A stretch of 14,016 bases of DNA from Ilumatobacteraceae bacterium. GTDB taxonomy: Bacteria > Actinomycetota > Acidimicrobiia > Acidimicrobiales > Ilumatobacteraceae. The translations under genes were made by a program, and so were the position numbers. Below are positions 7,724-13,851 of the stretch, piece by piece (position 1 is the first letter of the stretch; every line of letters begins with the position of its first letter). Location: positions 1 to 14,016 of the forward strand of contig JAENVT010000456.1 of NCBI GenBank assembly GCA_016650435.1, read 5' to 3'. The notes under the pieces are model-generated. The model worked only from the letters and a program-made list of their open reading frames with translations, did no database searches and was not told the DNA's origin.

Positions 7724-9742
7724 ATGGGTTACCGGTATCTGTGGACTCCGTTGGCGCTCGGTCCCGTCACCGTGCGCAATCGCATCGTCTTCAGCGCCCA
7801 CCTCACCAACTACGCCCGCGACGGCAAGCCCACCGAGCAGCACGTCGCTTACTACGCAGCGCGCGCTGCCGGTGGCGCCGGTCTGATCGTCACCGAAGAG
7901 CACTCGACGCATCCAACGGACTGGCCGTACGAGAAACTGATCCACGGCTTCCATCGAGATGTGATCCCCGGCTATCGGGCGATCACAGACGCAGTGCATC
8001 GCCACCGCGTCCCGATCTTCGCCCAGATCAACCACAACGGCGGTCAGGCCAGTTCGATGTTCTCGCGGCTGCCCGTGTGGGCACCGTCTGCCGTCGCTGA
8101 TCCGCTGTTTCGCGAGGTGCCGAAGGCTGTCACCCGACGCGAGATCGACGAGATCGTCGCCGGCTATGCACAGGTGGCAGAGCATTGCGCCGAAGGCGGC
8201 TTCGACGGCATCGAGTTGCAATGCAGCCATTCGTCGATCGTTCGCGGCTTTCTGTCCCCTGCCACCAACAGGCGCACCGACGAGTATGGGGGCTCGCTCT
8301 TCAACCGCGCCAGGCTGATGATCGACATCGTCGACGCAGTGAGACGGGCGATCGGCACCAACCTGGCGCTCGGCGTGCGCATCTGCGGCGATGAGTTGAT
8401 CGAAGGTGGCACGACCATCGACGACGCGGTCGAGGTTGCCCGGCTTGTGGAGGCAACCGGTCAGGTCGACTACATCAACACATCGATCGGTGTCGCCACG
8501 GCCAGTTTGTTCATGATCGAAGCGAGCATGCACATCCCGCCCGGCTACGCGATGTTCATCCCTTCCGCCATCCGCAAGGCTGTCGATCTGCCGGTAGTGG
8601 GGGTCGGACGGTTCAAGGATCCGCTGCAAGCCGAACGCGCCCTCGCCGAAGGTCACTGCGATTTGGTCGGCATCGTTCGCGGACAGATTGCCGACGCCGA
8701 CTTCGCCGCCAAAGCCAAGGCCGGCGCCACCGACGACATCCGCCTGTGCCTGTCGTGCAACCAGGAATGCGTCGGCCGCATGGGCCTCAACCGCTGGCTC
8801 GGCTGCATCGAAAACCCCAAAACCGGAAAAGAGGCGGTTGCGGCGGCGGCGGCGACGAGCCGCACGGAGAGCGAGACCAAAGCGAAGCGGAGGCCAGTCC
8901 CGACCATTCTGATTGTGATTGGCGCGGGGCCGGCTGGGTTGCAGGCGGCGATTGCTGCAGCGCGGAGCGGGCACACGGTGACGGTGTTCGAGAAGGAACG
9001 TCATGCCGGCGGACAGGTGCGGCTGGCGGCGTCGGTGCCGAATCGCGCCGAGTTCGGCGACATGATCCGCAACCAACTGACCGAGTGCCGCCGCTTGGGT
9101 GTGACGATCGAATACGGCGTCAGCGTGTGGCCCGGGCTGATCGCCGAGCGCAAGCCGGATCACGTGATCGTCGCCACAGGTGCCGAACCACAGCGGCCGT
9201 GGTGGGTGCCCGCCGATGCCGATCAGGTCGTCGACGTGCGCGCTGTGCTCGACGGCAGCGCGAGCCCATCCGGTGACGTAGTGGTGATCGATGAACTCGG
9301 CTTCCATCAGGCCACATCGGTGGCCGAGCTGCTCGCCGATCGCGGCTGCAATGTGGAGGTCGTCACCAACGGGATGGTCGTCGGTCAGGACCTCGGCATC
9401 ACGCTCGACATGGAGAACTGGTGGATGCGGGCGACTGCAAAAGGAATCGTCCAGTCCACCGATCTTGTCGCCATGGGCATGGGGGAACCTGCGCCGCGTC
9501 GTGTGCTCAACCTGTTACACCACCCCACGGGCACCAACGTCACTCGTTCACCGGATTGGGTGGTGCTGGCCGTACCCGGCAGCCCCGTCGAGTGGCTCTA
9601 CAACGATCTAAGAGCTGCGGGTGCAAGCGTTGAACGCGTCGGCGACTGCGTCGCCCCGCGTCGTGCGCACGCTGCCGTGATCGAGGGCGAACGGGCCGGC
9701 TCGGCCCTCGCCAGTCGAGTGTTTGACGCGCGCACGGGGTAG
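7724..9742 (+). CDS. FadH/OYE-family FMN, 4Fe-4S, FAD oxidoreductase (mycofactocin-associated type)
   Basis: A 672-residue enzyme built like 2,4-dienoyl-CoA reductase and trimethylamine dehydrogenase. Residues 1-335 form an FMN TIM barrel (LGPVTVRNRIVFSAHLTNYA, QINHNGGQ 101-108, RRTDEYGGS 183-191). A [4Fe-4S] cluster motif C-x2-C-x3-C-x11-C follows (C342, C345, C349, C361). An Ala-rich charged linker (about 368-392) leads to the FAD/NAD(P)-binding domain, beginning with ILIVIGAGPAGLQAA near 395. The N-terminal wording, including HLTNYA and THPTDWPYEKLIHGFH, closely resembles what I recall of the mycofactocin-system FadH/OYE oxidoreductase 2 group. That assignment is from memory, and no mft biosynthesis gene is present in this window. 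Substrate unknown. The canonical His-Ala-Gly of dienoyl-CoA reductases reads His-Asn-Gly here (H104-N105-G106). Confidence 0.92.
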   Translation: MGYRYLWTPLALGPVTVRNRIVFSAHLTNYARDGKPTEQHVAYYAARAAGGAGLIVTEEHSTHPTDWPYEKLIHGFHRDVIPGYRAITDAVHRHRVPIFAQINHNGGQASSMFSRLPVWAPSAVADPLFREVPKAVTRREIDEIVAGYAQVAEHCAEGGFDGIELQCSHSSIVRGFLSPATNRRTDEYGGSLFNRARLMIDIVDAVRRAIGTNLALGVRICGDELIEGGTTIDDAVEVARLVEATGQVDYINTSIGVATASLFMIEASMHIPPGYAMFIPSAIRKAVDLPVVGVGRFKDPLQAERALAEGHCDLVGIVRGQIADADFAAKAKAGATDDIRLCLSCNQECVGRMGLNRWLGCIENPKTGKEAVAAAAATSRTESETKAKRRPVPTILIVIGAGPAGLQAAIAAARSGHTVTVFEKERHAGGQVRLAASVPNRAEFGDMIRNQLTECRRLGVTIEYGVSVWPGLIAERKPDHVIVATGAEPQRPWWVPADADQVVDVRAVLDGSASPSGDVVVIDELGFHQATSVAELLADRGCNVEVVTNGMVVGQDLGITLDMENWWMRATAKGIVQSTDLVAMGMGEPAPRRVLNLLHHPTGTNVTRSPDWVVLAVPGSPVEWLYNDLRAAGASVERVGDCVAPRRAHAAVIEGERAGSALASRVFDARTG

Positions 9743-9760
9743 CCACGAACACTCCGATGA

Positions 9761-9766
9761 CATACT
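9761..9766 (+). promoter_or_regulatory. -10-like box CATACT before purE
   Basis: CATACT matches TATAAT at four of six positions and is followed by 6 nt and then GTG 9773. It is weaker than the other boxes because the first T is missing. No Shine-Dalgarno sequence precedes the GTG. Confidence 0.35.
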
Positions 9767-9772
9767 GAGCCG

Positions 9773-10267
9773 GTGAACGAGCACGCGCTGGTCGCAGTGG
9801 TGATGGGGTCGTCCAGCGACTGGTCGACGATGAGCAAAGCCGTCGACGTGCTGCAGCACTTCGGCCTTGCCCACGATGTGCGGGTGTTGTCGGCACATCG
9901 CATGCCGGACGAGATGTTCAGCTTCGCCGAATCAGCCAGGGAGCGTGGCCTGCGGGCAATCATTGCCGGCGCGGGCGGCGCTGCCCACCTGCCGGGAATG
10001 CTCGCCGCGAAGACAACGGTTCCGGTGCTCGGCGTTCCGGTGGTGTCTCGACATCTCGGCGGGCAGGACTCGCTCTACTCGATCGTGCAGATGCCCGCGG
10101 GCGTACCTGTCGCGACGTTTGCGATCGGCGAAGCAGGCGCGACGAACGCCGCGCTGTTCGCCGTGGCGCTGCTGGCTGGAGCCGATCCCGAGCTGACAAG
10201 TGCACTCGACGCGTACCGCAGCCAACGTCACGACGACGCCGCCGCGGCAGTCCTTCCGCCACAATGA
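9773..10267 (+). CDS. purE: N5-carboxyaminoimidazole ribonucleotide mutase
   Basis: Class I PurE, converting N5-CAIR to CAIR in de novo purine synthesis in the cytosol, directly after the PurK step. It has 164 residues, a normal length. Motifs are VMGSSSDWSTM (10-20), SAHRMPDEM (40-48, with the catalytic His at 42), IIAGAGGAAHLPGMLAAKT (63-81) and SLYSIVQMPAGVPVAT (100-115). The start is GTG 9773; no upstream in-frame alternative fits the family. The stop TGA 10265-10267 lies inside the first unit of a 14-bp tandem repeat and overlaps an ATG, beginning the mini-ORF chain that leads into purK. The usual bacterial purK-purE order is reversed here. Confidence 0.97.
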   Translation: MNEHALVAVVMGSSSDWSTMSKAVDVLQHFGLAHDVRVLSAHRMPDEMFSFAESARERGLRAIIAGAGGAAHLPGMLAAKTTVPVLGVPVVSRHLGGQDSLYSIVQMPAGVPVATFAIGEAGATNAALFAVALLAGADPELTSALDAYRSQRHDDAAAAVLPPQ

Positions 10268-10330
10268 TCTCGGCACAATGATCTCGGCACAATGATCTCG
10301 GCACAATGACCACGGCGCAATGATCACACC
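10261..10330 (+). repeat. 14-bp tandem repeat (three perfect plus two diverged units) bridging purE and purK
   Basis: The unit ACAATGATCTCGGC occurs perfectly at 10261-10274, 10275-10288 and 10289-10302. It then diverges as ACAATGACCACGGC (10303-10316) and GCAATGATCACACC (10317-10330). Unit 1 contains the purE stop and unit 5 contains the purK start. ATGs fall at 10264, 10278, 10292, 10306 and 10320. Replication slippage is the simplest origin. The period is not a multiple of three, yet every unit regenerates an ATGA stop-start overlap. Confidence 0.95.
10264..10323 (+). other. Chain of four 5-codon mini-ORFs (MISAQ x3, MTTAQ) linking purE stop to purK start
   Basis: Reading from ATG 10264, ATG ATC TCG GCA CAA TGA ends at 10281, and the next ATG (10278) overlaps its stop as ATGA. 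The same happens from 10278 to 10295 and from 10292 to 10309. From 10306 the frame reads ATG ACC ACG GCG CAA TGA, ending at 10323 in the overlap with purK ATG 10320. The purE stop itself overlaps ATG 10264. A ribosome could therefore terminate and restart five times without an untranslated gap. No Shine-Dalgarno sequence lies within the repeat. The frames are directly visible; that they are translated is an inference. Confidence 0.6.
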
Positions 10331-11432
10331 GCCTGCAACGCTCGGCATCCTCGGTGGTGGCCAACTCGGCCGGTACTTCGTGATGGCGGCGCGGACGATG
10401 GGCTACGGCACGGTGGTCCTCGAACCCGATCCGCACGCTCCGGCGGGGAAGGTGGCCGACGAACACATCGTCGCCGCGTTCGACGACGAGGGCGCGTTGA
10501 AACACGTAGCCGCGGTCTGTGCGGTGGTGACCACTGAGTTCGAGAATCCTCCCGCGGCGGCCATGGAGTTGCTCAGCGTGCACACGGCGGTTCGGCCCTC
10601 GGCGAGTTCCGTCGCCATCGCCCAGGACCGCCGCGCCGAGAAGGCGTTCTTGCGCTCCGCTGGTGTGCCCATTGCGCCATACGTGGTGATCGAAACCGAT
10701 GACCATGTCGACATCGCCCGTGAGTTTGACTACCCGGCCATCTTGAAGACAGCGCGCCTGGGATACGACGGCAAGGGACAGATTGCCGTTGCCTCTCCCG
10801 GCGATCTACGCGACACGTGGCTACAGCTGAACCGTCAGCCATGTGTGTTGGAGCAGCGGCAGCGGCTCGACGGTGAACTTTCCGTGGTGTTGGCCCGCAA
10901 CGCACACGGCGACACCGCGACGTATCCCGTGGCACACAACACCCACGTCAACGGAATCTTGGACTGCACCGTCGTTCCATACGCGGCGAACGGAGCAACC
11001 AAACTGGCCGACGCGATCGCCACCGCGCTCGACTACGTCGGCGTGCTTGCTGTGGAGATGTTCATCGTCGATGGACAATTGCTCGTCAACGAATTGGCAC
11101 CACGCCCGCACAACAGCGGGCACTGGACCCTCGATGCGGCGCGCACCAGCCAGTTCGAACAACAGGTGCGAGCCGTGTGTGGTGTCGGCCTCGGAGACCC
11201 ATCGATGACCGTCCCGGCGGTGGCGATGGTGAACCTGCTCGGTGATCTGTGGACCGACCTCGAGCCTGATTGGTCCGCCGCGTTGGCCGACCCCGCGGCT
11301 TCGCTTCATCTGTACGGCAAGACGACACCGCGACCGGGCCGCAAGATGGGCCACATCACGGTCACGGCGGCAACACCCGAAGAAGCCCAGCACCGGGCGA
11401 TGGCCATTCGAAGCAGCCTCACCGCTGGCTAG
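10320..11432 (+). CDS. purK: N5-carboxyaminoimidazole ribonucleotide synthase
   Basis: ATP-grasp enzyme that makes N5-CAIR from AIR, ATP and bicarbonate, supplying PurE. It has 370 residues, a normal length. Motifs are ILGGGQLGRYF (10-20, nucleotide-binding N-domain), TTEFEN (71-76), ARLGYDGKGQ (145-154, ATP-grasp glycine loop), CVLEQ (175-179) and NELAPRPHNSGHWT (257-270, metal and phosphate site). All expected motifs are intact. ATG 10320 lies in the last repeat unit and overlaps the stop of the preceding mini-ORF, so expression is probably coupled to purE. No independent ribosome binding site is visible. The stop codon TAG 11430-11432 falls within the -10-like box of the next gene. Confidence 0.97.
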   Translation: MITPPATLGILGGGQLGRYFVMAARTMGYGTVVLEPDPHAPAGKVADEHIVAAFDDEGALKHVAAVCAVVTTEFENPPAAAMELLSVHTAVRPSASSVAIAQDRRAEKAFLRSAGVPIAPYVVIETDDHVDIAREFDYPAILKTARLGYDGKGQIAVASPGDLRDTWLQLNRQPCVLEQRQRLDGELSVVLARNAHGDTATYPVAHNTHVNGILDCTVVPYAANGATKLADAIATALDYVGVLAVEMFIVDGQLLVNELAPRPHNSGHWTLDAARTSQFEQQVRAVCGVGLGDPSMTVPAVAMVNLLGDLWTDLEPDWSAALADPAASLHLYGKTTPRPGRKMGHITVTAATPEEAQHRAMAIRSSLTAG

Positions 11433-11444: not shown

Positions 11445-12083
11445 ATGGTTGCCGGAATCATCACCGACCTCACCGATTGGCTCGACCGGACCTCCGGCCA
11501 CAAGTGGTTCTTGGTGGTGATCCTGGTGATCGCACTCCTCGATTCGGTGATTCCGGTAGTTCCCAGCGAGACCTGCGTCATCATCGGCGGTGTCGCCGCA
11601 GGGTTGGGAACCCAGAACCTCCTCGCTGTGATCGCCGCCGGCGCGATCGGAGCCTTTATCGGAGACAACTGCGCCTACATGATCGGGCTGAGGGCCAGTG
11701 ATTGGTTTCGGCGTCGTGCTGAGCGCAAGCCGAAGTTCGCTCGAAAACTGGCCTGGGCGCAGTTGCAGATCCTCGAACGCGGCGGACTGCTGCTGATCAC
11801 CGCACGATTCATCCCCGGCGGGCGAACGGCATTGACGTTGTCGTGCGGAATCACGCGGCAGAGCCGTTGGTGGTTCATGCGGTGGGTCGCGCTGGCAACC
11901 ATCATCTGGGCGACGTATTCGGCGCTGCTCGGGCGCATCGGTGGCGAGGCATTCGAGAACAATCACACCAAGGCGTTCGTGACGGCGTTCAGCCTGGCGA
12001 TCGGCACGAATGTGCTCATCGAGGTCGCTCGACACTTCCGTAAGAAGCGGCGCGAAGCCGCTGCCGCAGCGGCGGCAGGTTGA
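11445..12083 (+). CDS. DedA/VTT-domain membrane protein
   Basis: A 212-residue inner-membrane protein of the DedA (SNARE-associated, VTT) family. Members act in lipid-carrier or phospholipid flipping and in membrane homeostasis; this member's substrate is unknown. Visible features are the hydrophobic helix WFLVVILVIALLDSVIPVVP ending in the re-entrant P-S-E motif (about 21-42), a Gly/Ala-rich segment AAGAIGAFIGDNCAYMIG (64-81), the family signature ARFIPGGRTALTLSCG (about 124-139) and further hydrophobic helices around 147-165 and 175-192. The C terminus is KKRRE followed by an alanine run. ATG 11445 is 12 nt after purK, and the TGA stop overlaps a possible TTG start of the next frame. It may sit in a purEK-led transcript, but no functional link is implied. 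Confidence 0.88.
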   Translation: MVAGIITDLTDWLDRTSGHKWFLVVILVIALLDSVIPVVPSETCVIIGGVAAGLGTQNLLAVIAAGAIGAFIGDNCAYMIGLRASDWFRRRAERKPKFARKLAWAQLQILERGGLLLITARFIPGGRTALTLSCGITRQSRWWFMRWVALATIIWATYSALLGRIGGEAFENNHTKAFVTAFSLAIGTNVLIEVARHFRKKRREAAAAAAAG

Positions 12084-12088
12084 CCGTG

Positions 12089-12925
12089 ATGAATCGACAC
12101 CTCGTCCAGTTGAACATCGCCACCTTGCAACATCCACTCGACGACCCGCACACTGCCGATTTCGTCAACGCGCTGCCGATCGTGAACGAGGCAGGCGAGC
12201 AATCGCCGGGGTATGTGTGGCGTCTGCAATCCGACAGCGGCGACGCCACCGACATCAGGGTCTTCGACGATCCCCTGATGATCGTGAACTTGACGGTGTG
12301 GGAGTCGCTCGAAGCGCTGAAGGCGTTCGCGTACCGCGGGATTCATCGCGATTTCTTCCGCAGGCGCGCTGAGTGGTTCGTCCCTGGTTCTACACGCACG
12401 GCATTGTGGTGGACGCCCGCCGGATCGCTACCCACAACAGACGACGCCAAACGCCGGCTCGAGTTCATCGACGTCTTCGGTCCGTCGCCGTACGCCTTCG
12501 GGATGGGTCAAAACCAGCCGGCGTTGGTGATCGAGCGAGTTGGGTCCGATGACGCTCGGGCCGCGGACGTGATCCGGCAGCTGCAGGATGACGGCGACGT
12601 GTCGACAGCCGACAACGATGGCCTCGTCGTCGTCGAGCTCGACGACGTGGCAGCTGGATTTGGCGCGTATCACCGGCTCGACGACACAACAGCGGAGGTC
12701 GCGCGCATTCATGTGGCCCAAACGGCACGAGGCGTGCGCGTTGGCGCGGCCATCGTGGCGGAGCTCGAAGCGCTCGCCAGGGCCAACGGACTGAGTCGTC
12801 TGTTGCTAGAAACCGGGCCCCAAATGGTCAGCCTGTACGAGAACTTCGGCTTCCGGGTCCGCAACGGCTCCCAACACGGCAAGGCGGTCACCTCGACACA
12901 CGTGGAGAAGCTGCTCACCACATAG
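12089..12925 (+). CDS. DUF3291 domain fused to a GNAT N-acetyltransferase
   Basis: A 278-residue two-domain protein. Residues 1 to about 137 match the DUF3291 pattern: LVQLNIATLQHPLDDP (5-20), DFVNALPIVNEAGEQSPGYVWRL (from 24), MIVNLTVWESLEALKAFAYR (from 64) and ALWWTPAG (105-112). This domain belongs to the dimeric alpha-beta barrel group, and its function is unknown. Residues about 143-278 form a GNAT fold with the acetyl-CoA loop ARGVRVGAAIVAELE (from about 213) and the terminal LYENFGF (249-255). ATG 12089 is preferred because GCAGG lies about 9 nt upstream; TTG 12080, overlapping the DedA stop, and GTG 12086 are in frame. No acetyl acceptor can be named. It follows DedA directly and probably shares its transcript. 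Confidence 0.82.
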   Translation: MNRHLVQLNIATLQHPLDDPHTADFVNALPIVNEAGEQSPGYVWRLQSDSGDATDIRVFDDPLMIVNLTVWESLEALKAFAYRGIHRDFFRRRAEWFVPGSTRTALWWTPAGSLPTTDDAKRRLEFIDVFGPSPYAFGMGQNQPALVIERVGSDDARAADVIRQLQDDGDVSTADNDGLVVVELDDVAAGFGAYHRLDDTTAEVARIHVAQTARGVRVGAAIVAELEALARANGLSRLLLETGPQMVSLYENFGFRVRNGSQHGKAVTSTHVEKLLTT

Positions 12926-12948: not shown

Positions 12949-13851
12949 ATGCTTGCAGTGATCGTTGTACGCGACGGACAATTGCCCGTCGGTGCCGACG
13001 AGACCGTGTCGGAATGCGGCGGCAGGGCGTTTCTGATCGGGTCAGGTACGACGGCGGCGACTGCAGACCTGCAGCACGTCGCTCGCGAGATCACCACGAT
13101 GGAGACCGGCGACTTCAAACCGGCAACATGGGCCGAGGCGCTGTCAGAGCAGCTTGGCGACGAGCCGATCGTCGTCCTGCCGGCGTCGCCCGACGGGCGC
13201 GACCTCGCTCCGCGACTGGCCGCACAATTGCAACGGCCGCTGCATGCCATGGCGATGAGCATCTCGCCGGCGAGAATCGATCTGATCCGTCGCCACGGCA
13301 ATGAGCTGCATTCGTTGGATCCTCCGGCTGCTTTCGTGGCGACATTGCAGCCCGGCGTGCGCGGCGTCGATCACGTCGGCACAGCACCGGTTGTTCGCAA
13401 CATCTCGGTTCAGTTGACAGCGCACAACGACGCGACTATCGAACAGCTGCTGCCACCGGACGCGGCGACAATCGACCTGTCCGAGGCGGAGCGAATTGTC
13501 TCCGGCGGCGCCGGTCTCGACGATGCGCGTCGCTTTGCCCAACTAGCGGAGCTCGGCGCGAGGATTCAAGCAAGTGTCGGTGCAACTCGCGTCATCACCG
13601 ATCGAGGCTGGGCCGGCCACGAGCGTCAGATCGGCACCACCGGCGTGATCGTCAGCCCGAAGCTCTACATCGCGTTCGGCATCAGCGGCGCTGTCCAACA
13701 CACCACTGGGCTCGGACGGCCAGAGCACATCATCAGCATCAACACCGATCCGCACTGCCCGATGATGCAGCTGGCCGATCTGGCAGTGGTTGCCGATGCC
13801 AACGCCGTGCTCGACGAGTTGCTCGCGCGGATCGGGATGCCGGATGGCTGA
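12949..13851 (+). CDS. etfA: Electron transfer flavoprotein subunit alpha (EtfA/FixB family)
   Basis: FAD-binding subunit of an electron transfer flavoprotein, shuttling electrons from acyl-CoA or other flavin dehydrogenases to a membrane quinone oxidoreductase. It has 300 residues, near the usual length. The N-terminal half (1-170) is a weakly conserved Rossmann-like domain. The C-terminal FAD domain is clear: ERIVSGGAGL (181-190), GATRVITDRGW (211-221), QIGTTGVIVSPKLYIAFGISG (227-247), then GAVQHTTG (247-254) and INTDPHCPMMQLADL (264-278). All cofactor-contact motifs appear intact. No EtfB/FixA gene stands upstream, unlike the common fixA-fixB-fixC order. The last codons overlap the following FixC-like gene by 8 nt, so the two are co-translated. 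Confidence 0.92.
   Translation: MLAVIVVRDGQLPVGADETVSECGGRAFLIGSGTTAATADLQHVAREITTMETGDFKPATWAEALSEQLGDEPIVVLPASPDGRDLAPRLAAQLQRPLHAMAMSISPARIDLIRRHGNELHSLDPPAAFVATLQPGVRGVDHVGTAPVVRNISVQLTAHNDATIEQLLPPDAATIDLSEAERIVSGGAGLDDARRFAQLAELGARIQASVGATRVITDRGWAGHERQIGTTGVIVSPKLYIAFGISGAVQHTTGLGRPEHIISINTDPHCPMMQLADLAVVADANAVLDELLARIGMPDG

Follow-up and report, generated by a model that had tools for sequence, protein, structure and literature searches.

A chain of four five-codon mini-ORFs built from a 14-nt tandem repeat lies between purE and purK in an Ilumatobacteraceae bacterium

The stretch of DNA analysed (the window, 14 016 nt) carries purE and purK on its forward strand, separated by a tandem array (Table 1). 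Among the 120 PurK matches listed, all sources with a taxon in their name were labelled Ilumatobacteraceae. Mycofactocin-associated genes flank the pair at 7724-9742 and 12949-13851 and were recognized above the curated cut-offs of TIGR03997 (OYE family 2) and NF038209 (mft_etfA). A DUF3291 and GNAT acetyltransferase fusion is located at 12080-12925; its TTG start overlaps the stop of a VTT-domain gene (11445-12083). At 1766-1769, two adjoining short membrane-protein ORFs (CrcB-like by eye) seem to be joined by a direct ATGA overlap of 4 nt, which is the unexpanded counterpart of the purE-purK junction.

Table 1. Features at the purE-purK junction (positions in the window).
Feature	Position	Strand	Evidence
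purE, N5-CAIR mutase; TGA at 10265-10267 overlapped by the ATG of mini-ORF 1	9773..10267	+	TIGR01162, 198.7 bits (cut-off 149.6); PF00731
14-nt tandem array, about 4.7 copies, three identical	10260..10325	+	Tandem Repeats Finder score 111 and sequence
Mini-ORF 1, MISAQ*; begins within the purE stop (ATGA)	10264..10281	+	Read from sequence
Mini-ORF 2, MISAQ*; 4-nt overlap with mini-ORF 1	10278..10295	+	Read from sequence
Mini-ORF 3, MISAQ*; 4-nt overlap with mini-ORF 2	10292..10309	+	Read from sequence
Mini-ORF 4, MTTAQ*; TGA at 10321-10323 overlaps the purK ATG at 10320-10322	10306..10323	+	Read from sequence
purK, N5-CAIR synthetase, 370 aa	10320..11432	+	NF004677, 519 bits (cut-off 441), TIGR01161; PF22660, PF02222, PF17769

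The array was scored highest of the four tandem-repeat rows of the window by Tandem Repeats Finder, with 92% matches. Copies 1-3 are identical (ATGATCTCGGCACA at 10264, 10278 and 10292), copy 4 (ATGACCACGGCGCA at 10306) differs from them at three positions, and the purK start at 10320 reads ATGATCACACCGCC, a diverged fifth copy. The five consecutive ATGA junctions (10264-10323) are all exact stop/start overlaps of -4 nt, and each of the four mini-ORFs consists of five sense codons and a stop. A sequence-only reading had described a 14-bp unit in three exact and two diverged copies, and a chain of mini-ORFs running through ATGA overlaps from the purE stop to the purK start; both descriptions were borne out, the former also by Tandem Repeats Finder and the latter as four five-codon ORFs. 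Without the mini-ORFs, purE and purK are separated by a gap of 52 nt.

Because 14 is 2 modulo 3, the frame opened by the ATG of each ATGA-bearing unit closes at the TGA of the following one. The chain thus follows arithmetically from an ATGA-bearing 14-nt unit, and the only free coincidences are the length class of the unit and the absence of an internal stop. Units were also counted loosely (up to three mismatches). Four were found in the window against a mean of 1.56 after shuffling, and 11 of 200 shuffles reached four, so this count alone is not striking. We infer that chance cannot yield three identical adjacent 14-mers. Expansion of the array during assembly is unlikely, since at about 70 bp it is shorter than an ordinary short read.

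Pairing with the anti-Shine-Dalgarno (anti-SD) sequence was calculated at -1.7 kcal/mol before purK and mini-ORFs 2-4 and at -2.3 kcal/mol before mini-ORF 1, with a median of -2.6 kcal/mol at random window positions. It was equally weak at purE (-1.9), the VTT gene (-1.5), the ETF gene (-1.5) and the DUF445 gene (-1.1). Thus, the expectation that purK lacks a strong start signal of its own held as far as the SD is concerned; since other genes of the window are as weak, coupling cannot be deduced from this. Scans for promoter- or terminator-like sites, a sigma-70-like promoter included, gave none in 9600-10700. The predicted RNA fold of the array was not unusually stable (z = +1.5) and no Rfam family was matched within the window. 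Promoter, terminator, RNA-fold and Rfam readings of the array were set aside after these negative scans.

The search for relatives covered 221 genomes, all from the family to which G001 belongs (its record carries the title Ilumatobacteraceae; entry point, locus L003). PurK was present at E ≤ 1e-60 in 71 of them. The junction set (n = 68) includes the window and a relative from outside the 221 genomes (L152), and in at least one case two of its loci are nearly identical (L003 and L131). Nine loci without a usable gene pair and four duplicates of places already covered were left out, and two of the 71 PurK places (G204 and G213, partial PurK matches) are not in the set. Direct RTGA overlap was the commonest purE-purK junction (37/68). 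In nine further junctions a start codon overlaps the purE stop. In five of these nine (the window, L096, L097, L098 and L100), the RTGA closing the overlapping frame also supplies the first in-frame start of purK; L097 and L100 also carry later candidate purK starts. A single mini-ORF running from RTGA to RTGA is present in four of the 68 junctions besides the window; its unit is 11 nt long in L098 and 14 nt in the other three. The frame overlapping the purE stop runs for 87 codons in L099, and in L147-L149 it ends within purK, at least 8 nt over the candidate starts. The closest genome with DNA, G125 (PurK 76%, PurE 86%), has no mini-ORF, its purE and purK meeting in the plain 4-nt overlap.

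The closest database relatives (P0002-P0013) are known from proteins alone. For five N-extended PurK proteins (P0010, P0016, P0037, P0079 and P0241) the mini-ORF was back-translated from the protein, and an RTGA stop fits exactly 13 nt before the purK start. This is the sole fitting position in four of the five; P0079 also fits 10 nt. By the same back-translation, P0010 fits one mini-ORF of the mini-ORF 4 type. The PurK trees place the five proteins in different subclades, P0241 with some uncertainty, and G125, which is identical to P0045 across the columns used, nests in another subclade. These positions were taken from an 86-row tree without G125 (match orientation) and a 46-row tree with G125 and without P0241. 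Mini-ORF numbers of 0, 1 and 4 were thus found among relatives. The copy-number variation for which a comparison of relatives had been proposed is present between species, and the ATGA geometry is retained, with its spacing kept. The C-terminus of the PurE protein P0131 (93% identical) is PPFNKSAQ, as would be expected from the loss of the first stop with the second copy closing the frame; by back-translation, it hints at a second copy. Three database proteins (P0242, P0247 and P0263) consist of PurE fused to the N-terminus of PurK, and are probably products of frameshifts in reads or assembly. The sequence LPPRMTSASMITPP in P0242 suggests an in-frame leader that the loss of 1 nt could turn into a mini-ORF. 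A scan of viral contigs gave no relative.

Arrays of four RTGA at fixed spacing were then searched in the 221 family genomes. A chain was called exact if the first RTGA held the stop of an upstream ORF (≥ 60 codons) and the last RTGA held the start of a downstream ORF that stays open for at least 40 codons beyond it. The orientation of the flanks was called with a simple codon model trained on the purE and purK genes of the family and the genes of the window. The 14-nt arrays analysed were those listed, minus one (G112 contig 133) with the same letters as L174, and the 13-nt arrays were likewise taken from the places listed. For 11, 16 and 17 nt, the loci returned by the search were analysed and several listed places without a locus were left out. 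Edge cases (2, 1, 1 and 1 for 14, 13, 16 and 11 nt) are outside the denominators. Arrays were present in at least 46 of the 221 genomes for 14 nt, 25 for 13 nt, 23 for 17 nt, 25 for 11 nt and 31 for 16 nt. The 14-nt spacing is the commonest array length overall, so that a mutational bias is also likely.

Exact chains were formed by 23 of the 103 listed 14-nt arrays, by 7/26 arrays of 17 nt and 1/31 of 16 nt, and by none of 25 (11 nt) or 32 (13 nt). Hence 14 and 17 nt together gave 30/129 (14-nt among the arrays listed) versus 1/63 for 13 and 16 nt. With the same scope, all 3n+2 spacings gave 30/154 versus 1/63 for 3n+1 (Fisher p = 2e-4); compared with the pooled 13 and 16 nt, p was 8e-5 for 14 nt alone (arrays listed) and 6e-4 for 17 nt alone, all p values being optimistic as arrays within one genome are not independent. 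Units of 11 nt are also 3n+2, yet gave no exact chain, which counts against the length rule; their absence fits a lower size limit (11 nt corresponds to four codons), in a small sample. Flanks that were both sense outnumbered those both antisense by 58:10 among the listed 14-nt arrays (binomial p = 2e-9). The ratios were 10:8 for 17 nt, 8:5 for 11 nt, 7:6 for 13 nt and 8:10 for 16 nt (15:16 for 13 and 16 nt pooled), so the bias is clear only for 14 nt and slight for 17 and 11 nt. In 25 of the 103 listed 14-nt arrays the upstream flank is sense and the downstream flank antisense, with nothing to couple, and these look like ordinary repeats behind stop codons. At L231, L234, L250, L265 and others, 14-nt RTGA arrays begin exactly at a gene stop and have an antisense flank downstream, so that TGA stops seem to be a general birthplace of repeats.

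In-frame stops within the units were found in 0/30 exact arrays and 9/101 others, which is the expected direction with too few cases to decide. An SD-like sequence (≤ -6 kcal/mol) precedes the last start in 10 of the 30 exact chains (33%, versus 14% at random positions), and these chains might initiate independently. A draw of 188 Actinomycetota genomes contained a 14-nt array in 21 and a 13-nt array in 7. Of those analysed, 4/24 and 0/6, respectively, were exact chains; the four (L388, L396, L398 and L399) come from genomes outside the 221 and have ORF-called flanks.

Every one of the 30 exact 14- and 17-nt chains has a Pfam match (E ≤ 1e-5) on at least one side, and 23 of them have one on both, so that the flanking genes are real. 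From these domains we take the joined pairs to be, among others, ftsW-murG (L237), nuoD-nuoE (L295), larB-larC (L274 and L284), hydrolase-Sua5 (L305 and L307), S1 protein-coaE (L181), YceG-aroE (L153), aminotransferase V-mnmA (L285) and znuA-ABC ATPase (L179). At L295, the NuoD profile finishes at the last residue. The array of L166 has seven units, and each Sua5 chain is made of three 17-nt units. Between larB and larC the chain counts three units in one genome and four in another; its letters have diverged and the RTGA spacing is intact. In the exact chains of L168, L179, L217, L225, L275 and L279 at least one adjacent pair of units shares 2-5 of 10 bases. That such low-identity units keep the 14-nt RTGA spacing is suggestive, RTGA having been required for detection. 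The genes upstream at L274 and L284 match PF00731 (AIRC), the family of PurE; that three chains follow a PurE-fold gene is probably a coincidence. PIN-domain genes lie behind two exact chains (L275, 14 nt x3, and L311, 17 nt x4). The chain of L275 follows a Phd-like antitoxin match, below the gathering score, and the ratio within an antitoxin/PIN pair is one for which a repeat-based dial might be relevant.

The origin of the units was examined by comparing them with their own junctions. Across the 23 exact chains of 14-nt units, the final unit shares on average 4.7 of 10 bases with the start of its own downstream gene (2.7 after shuffling), and the bases before the first RTGA share 4.3 with those before the second (3.0 after shuffling). 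Neither value was reached in 2000 shuffles. The same two measures gave 6/10 and 7/10 in the window. This likeness between units and the junctions that hold them indicates that the junction was duplicated locally and that the units were not inserted. We read the array of the window as a local tandem duplication of the purE-purK junction; its three identical copies suggest a recent expansion. The two-unit sequence of the window (up to three mismatches) was found in 0/221 family genomes, a set outside which the window's own genome lies. A dispersed repeat was rejected on this ground. Neutral slippage growth of a 4-nt overlap, the alternative given in the sequence-only reading, fits this origin well; in place of strict neutrality, the 3n+2 contrast suggests near-neutral growth limited to lengths at which coupling is kept.

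We somewhat favour a relay of four five-codon ORFs, made by in-place duplication of 14 nt and retained because 3n+2 units preserve coupling. The ribosome ending purE would be handed on to purK by successive ATGA termination-reinitiation steps. The array would have been born by tandem duplication of 14 nt at the junction. With a 3n+2 unit, each new ATG would read into the TGA of the next copy and coupling would be kept at any copy number; with a 3n+1 unit, reinitiating ribosomes would be out of frame, and such units have seemingly been removed at these junctions. Slippage would make repeats at gene ends, and selection would remove only the frame-breaking ones at co-directional junctions. The antisense-downstream arrays and the abundance of 14-nt arrays fit this model of slippage with selection only against frame-breakers. 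The earlier view that an ATGA chain suits termination-reinitiation is supported by the exact -4 nt geometry and by the recurrence under the 3n+2 rule. This recurrence at unrelated operon junctions argues against pure accident. In one study, a gap of +14 nt cut reinitiation in E. coli by 40-80% and one of +38 nt nearly abolished it, coupling fell steeply with gap length in both Haloferax and E. coli, and the last 15 nt of the upstream gene were enough for coupling (PMC10666635). By the E. coli limits, a 52-nt gap without mini-ORFs should uncouple purK and a -4 nt chain should not.

The same chain could be a neutral tandem repeat whose mini-ORFs are unused, purK being begun by short-range scanning or independently and the ATGA chain being a by-product of 14-nt slippage. 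We regard this as a real possibility, if an unlikely one. It agrees with the arithmetic origin of the chain from any ATGA-bearing 14-nt unit, with the listed 14-nt arrays that have nothing to couple, and with the SDs of several window genes, which are as weak as that of purK, so that weak-SD starts may be normal here. It also agrees with hyfH-hyfI of E. coli, where hyfI tolerates a 15-nt gap (PMC10666635). The 52-nt gap of the window, however, exceeds the coupling range given there for E. coli, and neither the contrast between 3n+2 and 3n+1 units nor the sense bias of the listed 14-nt arrays would be expected of unused repeats. An initiation or transcription signal carried by the repeats (SD-start pairs, a promoter or a protein site), acting in place of relayed reinitiation, could account for the SD-like sequences before the last start in a third of the exact chains; mycobacterial interspersed repetitive units (MIRUs) at senX3-regX3 are also reported to drive senX3-independent regX3 expression (PMC4213456). 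We hold such a signal to be highly improbable, given that the units of the window have no strong SD, sigma-70-like promoter or unusual fold, that unit sequences vary between loci, which leaves no shared binding site, and that the two-unit sequence of the window is absent from the 221 family genomes.

Under the relay, some ribosomes would be lost at each reinitiation step, hence a possible dial. Copy number would then be a slippage-prone setting of the PurK:PurE ratio, with each added mini-ORF losing ribosomes and selection or bet-hedging exploiting the result. The differences in copy number among relatives and at larB-larC (3 versus 4) and the three identical copies in the window are in line with such an adaptive use. 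Protein-neutral expansion accounts for the identical pattern, however, and chains occur at many unrelated junctions with no evident common need for tuning, so that we consider an adaptive dial quite improbable.

If the relay is real, tandem repeats in operons obey a 3n+2 rule that reports ribosome behaviour, and the surviving lengths reveal, from genome sequence alone, reinitiation at the overlapping codon and not scanning or reloading. The dispute between reinitiation and scanning would become testable genome-wide. The relay would also explain how operons tolerate the growth of repeats between genes, tie MIRUs to a wider class and provide a simple genetic means of adjusting protein ratios in steps. 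Tentatively, and with considerable doubt, slippage-grown mini-ORF chains may be proposed as a general, frame-ruled operon linker in Actinomycetota, in which 3n+2 units of at least five codons grow and shrink in number at stop/start overlaps without uncoupling and provide a mutable, protein-neutral setting of the ratio between neighbouring gene products, MIRUs being the long, mobile end. In the titles, abstract openings and passages searched, a literature with few subscription papers, no account of short slippage-born mini-ORF chains or of a length rule was found.

Four known arrangements resemble the array in part. At each step it shares the geometry of ATGA (-4 nt) coupling, the commonest purE-purK junction of the family, and differs from it by four extra, repeat-made start-stop steps between the enzymes. 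Short upstream or intergenic ORFs are alike in their likely role of bringing a ribosome to the next start, as described in PMC12548453; the chain of the window differs in being made of near-identical five-codon ORFs that are repeat-born and variable in number. With expression-altering VNTRs it has in common a short unit, identical copies and copy-number differences among relatives (here between species), whereas any effect that it may have would depend on reading-frame geometry where two operon genes meet. MIRUs are the closest known kind. According to a 2025 review, the repeat itself contains an ORF whose coupling to the following gene has a -4 nt geometry (PMC12548453), and at senX3-regX3, 77-bp and 53-bp MIRUs form tandem copies that differ between two strains (PMC4213456); by arithmetic both lengths are 3n+2. 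The likeness is one of geometry only: repeat units within an operon junction, and a repeat ORF at -4 nt overlap in operon orientation. Unlike the 53-77 bp MIRUs, the unit of the window is 14 nt long and belongs to no dispersed family in the 221 genomes, in keeping with local duplication rather than mobility.
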